Source: Microcaldota archaeon (lineage in GTDB: Archaea; Micrarchaeota; Micrarchaeia; Micrarchaeales; Micrarchaeaceae). Taken from it: a stretch of DNA of 63,429 nt. Under the pieces are notes generated by a model. The model made no database searches. It was not told the origin of the DNA and saw only the letters and a list, made by a program, of their open reading frames with translations. Numbering within the stretch: the first letter of the stretch is position 1; every line of letters begins with the position of its first letter. The position numbers and the translations under genes are program-made. Shown here in pieces: positions 7,004 to 29,055 of this stretch. The DNA lies in contig JAKAWS010000005.1 of the NCBI GenBank assembly GCA_021816885.1, forward strand, positions 1 through 63,429, in the 5' to 3' direction.

Positions 7004-7441
7004 CTACAGCGCCTTTTCGAACCATACTTCGCGTGACTGCTTGAATCCAATATGCTCATAGAACTCCTTGGAGTCCTTCATATGCGCCCCTACAGCAAAA
7101 TAAATCGTCTTTATGCCTTCGCTCTTTATATCGTTAATTGCATGCTCGATAAGCGTTTTGCCTACGCCTGATCTTCTGTACTTCTCGTCCACATATAACT
7201 CCTCAAAATAGGCGACGCCCTTATTCTTAATGTGCTCATACCAAACGAACCACAAGTAACCGATGATTTTGTCATGTGACTCGGCAACCAACACCCTCTG
7301 GTTTGCTCTGAACGCATCCAAGTCAAGTTTCGACCCGAAAAATTCCTGTTCTTCATCCCCCTCATATAATTTGTGATAATATTCAGATATCTTGGGAAAG
7401 TCCGGGGCGGCGGCCTTTCTTATGTTAAAATTATTGGACAT
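7004..7441 (-). CDS. GNAT family N-acetyltransferase
   Basis: A 145-residue acetyltransferase that would transfer an acetyl group from acetyl-CoA to an amine. It shows the GNAT core in order: an N-terminal strand-helix IRKAAAPDFPKI, strand VLVAESHDKIIGYLWF, strand VAYFEELYVDEKYR, and the acetyl-CoA loop RRSGVGKTLIEHAI (R/Q-x-x-G-x-G/A), then FYEHIGFK near the end. The start is ATG 7441 with GGTG six bases upstream. The substrate cannot be inferred; RimI-like or small-molecule acetylation are both possible. Confidence 0.9.
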   Translation of the reverse strand: MSNNFNIRKAAAPDFPKISEYYHKLYEGDEEQEFFGSKLDLDAFRANQRVLVAESHDKIIGYLWFVWYEHIKNKGVAYFEELYVDEKYRRSGVGKTLIEHAINDIKSEGIKTIYFAVGAHMKDSKEFYEHIGFKQSREVWFEKAL

Positions 7442-7581
7442 CCGAGTCACCAACTATATTTGTTCAGCTTATCCATTATAGAATCGTGAGATTTGTCTGT
7501 CAAAAGCACGAGCTTCTTTACTGGCAGTCTACCAAGGACTAACTTCTGACGGGCAGTTCAATACCCCTGCCTTGCTGTCTT

Positions 7582-7998
7582 CTATACATCCACCACATAC
7601 TTTGACATTATCTGGGCGACGTGTTCGAGCACCCTCCTTACATCCGCTTCCGTCTTCGTCTTTGTGCAGATCATCTTTCCATTCTTGAATATTATCAGTA
7701 CTCCCTTCGGATTGTCGCATCTGAATATCGCTCCGGGGAACTGGTCTGGTTCGTAATCCACCGACCTTATCTCCTTCGAAAGCGTGTATAGATCTATGCT
7801 TGCATGAAGGTCTGCGCTGGCGACCATGTTAGTCACTGATATCTGTGGAAATGGTATCCCGCCACGCGGAGTCGACTTCGTGTCTTTCCCTTTTTTAGTT
7901 TTTTGGCCAGCCGTTGAATCACCTTTACATATAAATCTGTTTAGAAAAGTATATATAGGTAGATAAGGAGCGGAGATTATGCGTAGTAAGGTGAGCAT
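7582..7998 (-). CDS. Single-repeat TATA-binding protein homologue
   Basis: The last ~88 residues match one TBP repeat: ISVTNMVASADLHASIDL, then the stirrup region DYEPDQFPGAIFR, then KGVLIIFKNGKMICTKTKTE and a long helix EADVRRVLEHVAQIM. Normal archaeal TBP has two such repeats in about 180 residues; here the frame stops after one, and the sequence behind the stop shows no second copy in any frame. The N-terminal ~50 residues (from ATG 7998) are unlike TBP, and the true start may lie further in. The gene is divergent from, and overlaps, the start of the geranylgeranyl reductase gene. It could dimerise to mimic a full TBP or act as a regulator. Confidence 0.8.
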   Translation of the reverse strand: MLTLLRIISAPYLPIYTFLNRFICKGDSTAGQKTKKGKDTKSTPRGGIPFPQISVTNMVASADLHASIDLYTLSKEIRSVDYEPDQFPGAIFRCDNPKGVLIIFKNGKMICTKTKTEADVRRVLEHVAQIMSKYVVDV

Positions 7999-9079
7999 TG
8001 TGGGTGCGGGGGCTGTTGGGCTTTATCTCGCTTATAAGCTTGCTTCTGATGGGATAGACGTCACCATCTACGATGGAAAAAGAAATATAAGAGACCGCTC
8101 AGATACGGCATCAGGGATACTCTCTAAAAGGGGGCTTGAGCGTTTTAAGATAGACTATTCTGCCGCTCTTCTGAACGAGTTGGACGGAGTCGTGATACAC
8201 GTCAATCGGAAGACGATGAAGGTAAAGGCAGCAGAGCCAAGAGCAGTAGTGCTTGACAGAGGGATATTTGCAGAGATTCTTATGGGGATGGCAGAGGATG
8301 CGGGAGCTGAAGTGTTGCTTGGCAAAAGACTTGGCAAGGAGAAGATAGCGGAGATGATTATGGACAACGAGAGCGTTCTTGTCGGGGCAGACGGCGCTGT
8401 CTCTGCGGTTGCCAGCGCTGCAGGCTTTGATGGGATAAGAGAATATGTACTGACTTACAAAGCCGTATTTGATGGTATGTCGATTGAAGACTGTGGCTCG
8501 GCAGAGCTGTTCTTTTCTAAGAGCTTCGCGCATAGGTTCTTTGGCTGGACAGTCCCGTATTCCGGCTCTGCCTTAGAGATAGGGCTCGGAATAAGCGACT
8601 CTGCGAAGACATCCAGCAAGACCGCTTTCTCGAGATTTATCAATGAGGAAGTCAAGGACAAGATAGGGATGGCTAGACCTATCGGGGAACATGCAAGCAT
8701 GATACCTATCTCCAGAAGGAAAAAGACCGTAAAAGAGAATGTTGTATTGGTGGGCGATGCCGCAGGGCAAACAAAATCCACTACAGGCGGCGGCCTCATT
8801 TTTGGGATGGCCTGCGCTGACATCGCAGCAAAATCGATAACTGCACATTTGAGGAAAGGTGCCAAACTCAGCGCGTATGAGAGGATGTGGAGGTCGCGAT
8901 ATGGACTTGACCTGAGGCTCCATGATGCCCTGCATGCATATTACTCCAATTTCTACGGTTCTTTCGGTTTCTTTATAGGAATGGCTGAGACTATCGGACT
9001 TGACCGGTTCTTTGGCAGATATGGGGATATGGACAGCCCGAGCCTTATGATAAAGAGGTTTTTTACGCGGTCTGTATGA
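7979..9079 (+). CDS. Geranylgeranyl reductase family FAD-dependent oxidoreductase
   Basis: A 366-residue flavoprotein with an N-terminal Rossmann motif VGAGAVGLYLAYKLASDG, a second FAD motif VLVGADGAVSAV, and the C-terminal VVLVGDAAGQTKSTTGGGLIFG loop typical of archaeal geranylgeranyl reductases. These enzymes saturate the isoprenoid chains of archaeal membrane lipids at the membrane face. The start ATG 7979 has AAGGAG upstream and a TATATATA box about 28 bases before it. It is divergent from the single-repeat TBP gene, sharing the promoter region. The family also reduces other polyprenyl groups, so the exact lipid is not certain. Confidence 0.88.
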   Translation: MRSKVSIVGAGAVGLYLAYKLASDGIDVTIYDGKRNIRDRSDTASGILSKRGLERFKIDYSAALLNELDGVVIHVNRKTMKVKAAEPRAVVLDRGIFAEILMGMAEDAGAEVLLGKRLGKEKIAEMIMDNESVLVGADGAVSAVASAAGFDGIREYVLTYKAVFDGMSIEDCGSAELFFSKSFAHRFFGWTVPYSGSALEIGLGISDSAKTSSKTAFSRFINEEVKDKIGMARPIGEHASMIPISRRKKTVKENVVLVGDAAGQTKSTTGGGLIFGMACADIAAKSITAHLRKGAKLSAYERMWRSRYGLDLRLHDALHAYYSNFYGSFGFFIGMAETIGLDRFFGRYGDMDSPSLMIKRFFTRSV

Positions 9080-12388: not shown

Positions 12389-13021
12389 TCAGTGGCGCTT
12401 GGAGATTACCAATGCGGCTGCGATTATAGCTATTATGACTATAATTATGACCAAGTACACGTAAGCGTTGCCTCCTGAGGAGCCAGTTGCCGGATATAAT
12501 GTCGAAGGCGGAGGGGCAGAAGGGGTAGAGGATGTCGCGGTCGAACTGTTGGTCTTTGGTACAGTTGTATTGGCGGTTGTGCTGTTTGTGCTTGTGGAAG
12601 AGGACGTGGTATTTGCTGGTTTAAGTACAGTAAGCCGAAGCACTGCATTGTTCTGCGAAGGATCATCCCCCGTGGCATTAAGTGTTATATTATAATTGCC
12701 AGGAATGGTAGAACTTGATATAGATATAGACATGCTTCCGGTATACGTTGGTTCTCCGTAGCTTGTACTGAGAGATACTGTTATCCCGGCAGAATTCAGG
12801 TACGAAAGGTCCACCACATTTAGCGTTGTACCCCATGTACTTCCGCTTGCCAGTTTCACTACATATGGGATGCTGGTGCTTTTTCCCTGATATATGGATG
12901 TATTTGCATAGGCGATGCTTATGGATGAGGTTCCGATTGCAGTCGCTCCAGAATACGATGTGGATAAAAGCGATATAAGTAGGAAACATAGCCCGAAAAT
13001 TGCAATGTTTTTTAGGTTCAC
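12389..13021 (-). CDS. Secreted, C-terminally anchored surface protein
   Basis: A 210-residue protein with a signal peptide (hydrophobic IAIFGLCFLLISLLSTSYSG), an exported beta-rich domain rich in Ser, Thr and Asn-x-Ser/Thr glycosylation sites with a NPCBM/CARDB-like YNITLNATGDDPSQNN stretch, a low-complexity Ser/Thr/Pro linker (about 150-185), and a C-terminal membrane helix followed by SKRH. This is the layout of archaeal cell-surface glycoproteins. The start is GTG 13021: GGTG lies 5 bases upstream, and any earlier start would fall inside the 5S rRNA gene. The gene begins only 11 bases after the 5S 3' end, so both are probably on one transcript. Confidence 0.75.
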   Translation of the reverse strand: MNLKNIAIFGLCFLLISLLSTSYSGATAIGTSSISIAYANTSIYQGKSTSIPYVVKLASGSTWGTTLNVVDLSYLNSAGITVSLSTSYGEPTYTGSMSISISSSTIPGNYNITLNATGDDPSQNNAVLRLTVLKPANTTSSSTSTNSTTANTTVPKTNSSTATSSTPSAPPPSTLYPATGSSGGNAYVYLVIIIVIIAIIAAALVISKRH

Positions 13022-13032
13022 GCAAACACCGA

Positions 13033-13148
13033 TGCCAAACAGCAATATGCTTTCCCACCTTACGGCAGTACACACATATCGTGGACAGGCTTAGCTTCCG
13101 AGTTCGGAATGGGATCGGGCGTTTCCCTGCCCCTATTACCGTTTGACG
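13033..13148 (-). rRNA. rrf: 5S ribosomal RNA
   Basis: The minus strand holds the conserved 5S core: a CCCATTCCGAACTCGGAAG loop, preceded by GGGGCAGG which pairs with CCTGTCC. The terminal stem pairs GTCAAACGG (13139-13147) with CTGTTTGGC (13034-13042), nine pairs with two G-U. The arm ATATG...CATAT with a GTAA loop follows. A TATA box at 13171-13177 puts the start near 13148, in agreement with the stem. The gene stands apart from any 16S or 23S gene in the window. End positions are good to about two bases. Confidence 0.92.
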
Positions 13149-13170
13149 GGTATCCTTGTTGGGCAAGTTT

Positions 13171-25975: not shown

Positions 25976-26494
25976 TCAATATTGGGCAAGGGAAATGACG
26001 TTGCACTGCAGTTTATCCCTTCCGCCCAGCTCTTTCAGTTCTATAAGAAATATGAATGATGATACCTCGCCTCCTGTTTTTTTTATTAGATTGTAGGCGG
26101 CAACCGCTGTGCCGCCAGTTGCAAGCAAGTCATCTACAATGATAACCTTTGCGCCTTCCTGAAAGGCATCCTTGTGGATCTCTATCGCATCCTTGCCGTA
26201 TTCCAGGTCATACTCTTCGCTTTCTTTCTCGTAAGGGAGCTTTCCCTTCTTTCGTATAGGTATGAAACCCTTTTTCGTCTTGTAAGCTAGAGCCGAACCT
26301 ATTATGAAACCTCGTGCTTCTATTCCGGCTATGTATTCTACGTCTTCGTTTACAGCCTCTGCCGCCTTGTCTATTACTGCCCTAAAGAGCTCCTTGTCTT
26401 TGAGAAGAGTAGTTATATCCCTGAAAAGTATTCCTTTCTTAGGATAATCAGGTATATCGCGTATGCCTCTTTTTATTCGCTCTGAGATGTCTAT
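25976..26494 (-). CDS. apt: Adenine phosphoribosyltransferase, ATA start codon
   Basis: A 172-residue type I phosphoribosyltransferase that makes AMP from adenine and PRPP. Motifs: RDIPDYPKKGILFRDITTLL (N-terminal APRT signature), YIAGIEARGFIIGSALAY, PIRKKGKLPYEKE, and the PRPP loop VIIVDDLLATGGTA. The frame has no ATG, GTG or TTG before these conserved residues. ATA at 26494 has GGTG five bases upstream, and reading it as Met gives the usual APRT N-terminus (M-DISERIKRGIRDIP). Translation from ATA is therefore inferred. The gene is convergent with the CDP-alcohol transferase and serves purine salvage. Confidence 0.9.
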   Translation of the reverse strand: MDISERIKRGIRDIPDYPKKGILFRDITTLLKDKELFRAVIDKAAEAVNEDVEYIAGIEARGFIIGSALAYKTKKGFIPIRKKGKLPYEKESEEYDLEYGKDAIEIHKDAFQEGAKVIIVDDLLATGGTAVAAYNLIKKTGGEVSSFIFLIELKELGGRDKLQCNVISLAQY

Positions 26495-28614: not shown

Positions 28615-28935
28615 CTATTGGGAAAACTTGATCTCTTCTGTTTTCTCTGTCCTCTTGGATATCGCTCCTGATTCTCCGTAGAGATACATTATGAGCTTTA
28701 TCTTGTAGTTGCCCTGTACGCTCACTTTTTTTGTGTACAGGTTTACCCTCTGGTCTATTGCCTTACCTGGCATTAGTATCCCGATCCTCCTTCTGCCGTA
28801 GCTTAGCTCTCGGTCCATCGCCAGAGATATTGGAGCTTCCACCTCTATATCGCATTCGCACCAGTATGGGCCTTCGTTGTCAGGGATGGATGTTTTTATG
28901 TTCAGAGATACTTCGTCAGTCTGGTTCGGCCTCAT
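28615..28935 (-). CDS. Beta-rich protein, unknown; true start probably upstream
   Basis: At least 106 residues from ATG 28935, beta-rich with an Ig-like rhythm: DEVSLNIKTSIPDNEGPYWC, then IEVEAPISLAMDREL and GNYKIKLIMYLYGESGA. The frame continues upstream without a stop through ELIIDTEFAPE, which looks like the first strand of the same fold, but no ATG, GTG or TTG is there. An ACG at 28977 sits five bases after AGGTGATCAT, the usual spacing, so an ACG start adding 14 residues is possible. No signal peptide. Family unknown. Confidence 0.6.
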   Translation of the reverse strand: MRPNQTDEVSLNIKTSIPDNEGPYWCECDIEVEAPISLAMDRELSYGRRRIGILMPGKAIDQRVNLYTKKVSVQGNYKIKLIMYLYGESGAISKRTEKTEEIKFSQ

Positions 28936-29055
28936 TGTTTCAGGCGCGAACTCAGTATCAATGATTAGCTCGTCCGTATGATCACCTATACAGATTTTAT
29001 CCGAATGGTTTTATATTGTTTCCGAATATACTATGATAGGTTTTTGGTGGTCCCT

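Follow-up and report, generated by a model that had tools for sequence, protein, structure and literature searches.

One-lobe TATA-binding proteins in Micrarchaeota and related archaea, and their probable assembly as dimers

The TATA-binding protein (TBP) is a textbook essential protein built by duplication and fusion of a half-unit, of which two copies are supposed to have paired originally. In canonical TBPs (1mp9, 1ais, 2z8u and 1cdw) two tandem repeats, or lobes, lie in one chain, and the N- and C-lobes of the Sulfolobus, Methanocaldococcus and Pyrococcus proteins are 44-53% identical. A single TBP-like lobe also forms the N-terminal domain of RNase HIII, where it is fused to the nuclease. 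Free-standing single-lobe archaeal TBPs were mentioned in one sentence by Ravarani 2020 (PMC7221094), citing Brindefalk 2013 (NAR 41:2832); that sentence gives no clade, partner, sole-TBP status or re-duplication. The existence of a one-lobe archaeal TBP is not new, and the original prediction, according to which single TBP domains are known mainly from fusions, was incomplete in view of this sentence. In DPANN surveys TBP is recorded simply as present. Our literature search, in which Brindefalk 2013 was represented through the citing paper, returned no description of TBP architecture in Micrarchaeota and no report of a clade having a one-lobe protein as sole TBP, of repeated re-duplication, or of a pair of one-lobe paralogues (A and B, below).

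The window, a stretch of 63,429 nucleotides, is contig C14 of a Ca. Micrarchaeota genome of 795 kb that is 93.7% complete. The gene under study and its neighbours are located in the window as follows.

7582..7914, minus strand: TBP paralogue B, one lobe, 110 aa with an ACG start (Pfam TBP 88.1 bits; AF2 model)
7597..7842, minus strand: TBP lobe proper, profile positions 2-85 of 85
7004..7453, minus strand: GNAT acetyltransferase, neighbour, context only
7979..9079, plus strand: geranylgeranyl-reductase-like FAD protein, divergent neighbour, context only

The lobe is a single complete TBP repeat, matching PF00352 far above chance (88.1 bits, E 3.5e-25; curated Pfam cut-off, 22.9 bits), and PF00352 was the only domain found in the 110-aa stand-alone ORF. 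Unlike the RNase HIII domain, it is free-standing, with no fused RNase H and with a strong TBP identity. With canonical TBP it shares the lobe fold, the stirrup YEP(E/D)QFPG, the DNA-contact Asn and Phe residues and the acidic pair that contacts TFB, and its genome has both TFB and TATA promoters; it differs in having one lobe instead of two tandem repeats and in falling below every NCBIfam TBP cut-off, the best score against the PRK00394 models being 82.3 bits vs the required 181-347. Annotation models tuned to two-lobe TBP thus reject a TBP that is essential in these genomes.

As had been predicted, the gene encodes one TBP repeat and then stops, and a six-frame search of the whole genome revealed no second repeat adjoining it in any frame. 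The same search gave a total of two TBP matches, both one-lobe and on different contigs, and no full-length TBP; the other match is a single repeat (C10:23528-23773, locus L002), unlinked to the window gene and adjoining a 107-aa ORF that resembles ribosomal protein L21e. The genome carries both paralogues, A and B, the window gene being B. Since there is neither an adjacent repeat nor a full TBP anywhere in the genome, a full gene split by a sequencing error can be excluded. One of the roles proposed originally, that of partner to a full TBP, is ruled out by the lack of such a protein.

The ORF had been predicted to extend over 7582-7998 (138 aa, from an ATG). Its lobe content was correctly recognized, but the start is probably 28 codons too far upstream, and the TBP-B protein is probably the 110 aa encoded by 7582-7914, as judged from the following elements.

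7912..7914, minus strand: probable start codon ACG, in the same place in about 25 distinct sequences of the window family (f1)
7920..7923, minus strand: Shine-Dalgarno GGTG, 5 nt before the ACG
7950..7957, minus strand: TATA element TATATATA, candidate TBP-B promoter, lying 36-43 nt 5' of the ACG

The ATG at 7998 sits upstream of this TATA element. In f1 the B genes have ACG ("TAK") exactly where those of the sister family f2 have ATG or TTG ("MAK"); in several f1 species an in-frame stop lies immediately 5' of the ACG, and some f1 B genes have no ATG, GTG or TTG ahead of the lobe. Exceptions in f1 are ATG starts, one ATA and one GCG at that position. Where it is conserved in f1, the ACG always lies about 5 nt after a GGTG; the TBP-B orthologues that show it include L104, L111, L187, L189, L191 and L253. 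Upstream of 40 window genes, TATA-like hexamers were enriched at -40 to -26 (13 observed vs about 1.4 expected). It was also noticed that in genus g1 the A gene (L095) appears to begin at ACG. Non-canonical starts in the window are not peculiar to TBP: an adenine phosphoribosyltransferase gene (25976-26494, minus strand) has ATA (26494), after GGTG, as its only plausible start and no canonical start upstream, and a 120-aa ORF (28615-28977, minus strand), with no match in Pfam or NCBIfam, has an ACG start (28977) after GGTGATCAT. No archaeal paper on ACG starts was found in the literature search. Elsewhere in the window, a region at about 13090-13160 on the minus strand, upstream of ORF 12389-13075, resembles 5S rRNA, and ORF 12690-13166 is therefore probably spurious.

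Family f1 comprises 85 genomes from 27 genera, and TBP matches were obtained in 80 of them. At least two one-lobe TBP genes were present in 30 of the 32 f1 genomes that are at least 90% complete; the paired genes lie on different contigs or far apart and form two orthologous sets, A and B. In f2, A alone is the usual state, B being found in 17/49 genomes at least 80% complete (the second match of G149 counted apart); one f2 genome assembled as a single contig of 771,545 bases (G092) has one one-lobe TBP and no other TBP. One-lobe TBPs also occur in f8, f9, f10, f11, f13, f14, f15, f17, f21, f22, f24 and f25; beyond f1 and f2, about ten families of Micrarchaeota have no TBP but the one-lobe form. 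A genome in two contigs (G116) has three one-lobe TBPs. Two-lobe TBPs of about 190-260 aa were found in f3-f7, f12, f16, f18, f20, f23 and f26. Nearly all sampled genomes of Iainarchaeota (Diapherotrites) are two-lobe, G234 being one-lobe, and four other MAGs that form a group of their own (G235, G237-G239) also have the one-lobe form. One-lobe TBPs are thus conserved among relatives of the window genome, in 27 genera and more than 10 families. A gene decayed from a normal TBP, or one disrupted by a misassembly or frameshift, would likewise leave an ORF with a single lobe only; however, the breadth of this conservation, the intact frames, the occurrence in single-contig genomes and the absence of a second repeat in every frame make the likelihood of either negligible. 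The relic proposed originally is refuted by these comparative data and by the intact DNA-contact and TFB-contact residues.

The DNA-contact residues (the S1 Asn, the stirrup Phe and the second Phe), scored as the invariant N7, F37 and F54, are all in place. One-lobe TBPs in general retain the stirrup Phe. The S1 Asn is kept in 180 of 181 one-lobe TBPs (53/54 B, 77/77 A and 50/50 others). The pair L3.2/L3.4, whose positions contact TFB in canonical C-lobes (PMC7221094), is acidic in every one-lobe sequence scored, being E/E or E/D in all A and B proteins and E and D in the window lobe. Since both sets of residues are kept, one type of lobe would carry both contacts. A TFB with two cyclin folds was detected in 27 of 28 genomes tested, including G092 and the window genome (C5:30654-31178). 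In f1 and f2 the TFB frames are somewhat longer, mostly about 357-402 aa vs about 300-325 aa elsewhere, these being open-frame lengths and not those of annotated proteins.

In the AF2 model of the 110-aa window protein (pLDDT 85, above 90 over most of the lobe) the chain forms one TBP half, which superposes on one half of human TBP with an rmsd of 0.7 A over 82 columns. In the model of a natural two-lobe relative, L309 (pLDDT 92.8), the chain folds into a complete saddle that matches S. acidocaldarius TBP with a TM of 0.86, and two near-identical lobes are therefore predicted to form the TBP saddle when linked; by extension, they may do so when unlinked.

Lobe trees bear on where the single lobe came from. 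In three trees the lobes of the clade (one-lobe proteins, A, B and both lobes of the two-lobe TBPs) were split from canonical N- and C-lobes with supports of 98/97, 100/96 and 100/97, which traces all of them to a single ancestor, most probably the N-lobe of canonical TBP. B formed one clade on a long stem branch (100/99). Two unlinked one-lobe genes per genome would also be expected if an ordinary TBP had been split, A being its N-lobe and B its C-lobe; but both cluster with other lobes from Micrarchaeota and apart from the two canonical types (98/97; 100/96), and B arose within the order, relatives having A only. Such a split TBP is very unlikely, being rejected by trees in which A and B share one lobe ancestor.

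When human lobes were included, canonical C-lobes stood apart from canonical N- and DPANN lobes (95/80), with the DPANN lobes beside the Sulfolobus N-lobe, and a secondary loss of the C-lobe in the ancestor of the clade is favoured by this placement. The window gene had originally been seen as the kind of unit from which TBP was duplicated, an idea that gains no support from trees placing the lobes inside or beside canonical N-lobes. The lobe trees rest on 81-82 columns with long canonical branches and are weak deep down, and the AU test did not reject a constraint that holds canonical N-lobes in one clade with the DPANN lobes outside (p 0.33; a second test gave p 0.17). It is therefore conceivable, though we consider it improbable, that the one-lobe TBP of Micrarchaeota, Iainarchaeota and relatives is the primitive, pre-duplication state; if so, transcription in living cells would to this day depend on the dimer that preceded the duplication.

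The two-lobe TBPs of Micrarchaeota and Iainarchaeota have the same type of lobe as their one-lobe relatives, to which they are up to 82% identical, but carry both lobes in one chain, apparently through re-duplication within the clade. In L309 the two lobes are 82% identical to each other, and one of them shares 82% identity with L074, a one-lobe protein. Identity between N- and C-lobes is 72-82% in many micrarchaeal two-lobe TBPs, well above the canonical range, and lower in f7 (61-62%), f12 and f18 (49-52%) and Iainarchaeota (42-61%). A species tree was built from Rpo2 (63 taxa and 617 columns), with two archaeal Rpo2 sequences from PDB matches as its root. One-lobe lineages branch at its base, and the lobe number must have changed at least four times, with second lobes gained in 1) Iainarchaeota, 2) f4/f5/f16/f18, 3) f7/f12 and 4) f3/f6/f20/f23/f26. 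On this tree two-lobe forms arose about four times within the clade. A single duplication behind all of them is weakly rejected, as placing their N-lobes in one clade costs 59.6 lnL (AU p 0.037). In some groups, intragenic gene conversion is an alternative to re-duplication; however, N-lobes group with N-lobes and C-lobes with C-lobes in f7/f12 and f4/f5, which argues against ongoing homogenisation there.

The recurrent gains imply that a two-lobe assembly is the functional unit. We give a probability of roughly 0.7 to the reading that the one-lobe proteins are genuine TBPs whose lobes dimerise, as A:A in most lineages and probably as A:B in the window family. The window protein would then be a true TBP that has been pared down to a single lobe; separately encoded lobes would associate non-covalently via the face that joins the N- and C-halves of a normal TBP, and the saddle so formed would bend TATA DNA and recruit a normal TFB. 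Dimerisation, partner choice and DNA binding are the parts of this explanation that we infer. Most one-lobe lineages have a single lobe gene, and the saddle there would have to be an A:A homodimer, whereas in f1 it is most likely an A:B heterodimer, because A and B nearly always co-occur, this co-occurrence being the evidence for the pairing. With a symmetric homodimer, promoter direction would depend on TFB and BRE alone; an A:B pair would restore asymmetry.

A lobe might instead act as a monomer on half a TATA box, with TFB supplying the missing half of the interface. The occurrence of one-lobe proteins as sole TBP and the somewhat longer TFB frames of f1 and f2 would agree with this, but the face of the sheet normally covered by the other half would lie exposed, and the lobe was re-duplicated about four times in relatives, so that we regard a monomer as highly improbable.

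Less remote, though still unlikely, is an arrangement in which A:A is the general TBP in f1 as well, with B forming separate B:B dimers or acting at certain promoters as a specialised or inhibitory factor, much as haloarchaea have multiple TBPs. A alone suffices in many f2 genomes; B being often absent there, A does not need it. B is also a clade of its own on a long stem, and could have a role different from that of A, and its conserved ACG start suggests that it is kept at a different level. Against this arrangement, B is almost universal in f1 and retains all DNA- and TFB-contact residues, and we prefer the A:B dimer for this family.

The TBP half-unit alone is apparently what a phylum-level clade of present-day archaea relies on. 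With natural one-lobe and re-fused two-lobe TBPs side by side, the ancestral-homodimer idea becomes testable with natural proteins, as do the comparison of symmetric and asymmetric TBPs, the direction of transcription under a symmetric TBP with TFB and BRE alone, and the question of why fusion recurs.

Four further matches were noticed in the survey. The only canonical TBP encountered in f1 (L003/L184, G067:C43) has two lobes and lies on an 8.4-kb contig in a bin that also holds A and B; this is probably a contaminating or host contig. At a contig edge in f2, L193 (G149:C39) carries upstream an in-frame repeat of the lobe end, identical over about 98 bases, which is either a nascent tandem duplication or an assembly artefact. 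A one-lobe TBP in the otherwise two-lobe f6 (L081, G170:C11:137433) clusters with f6 N-lobes and is a possible reversion to one lobe. L173 (G181:C12:19300-19539), together with weak matches in many Iainarchaeota genomes, represents a second, very divergent TBP-like single-domain protein of ~95-118 aa that is distinct from the one-lobe TBPs.
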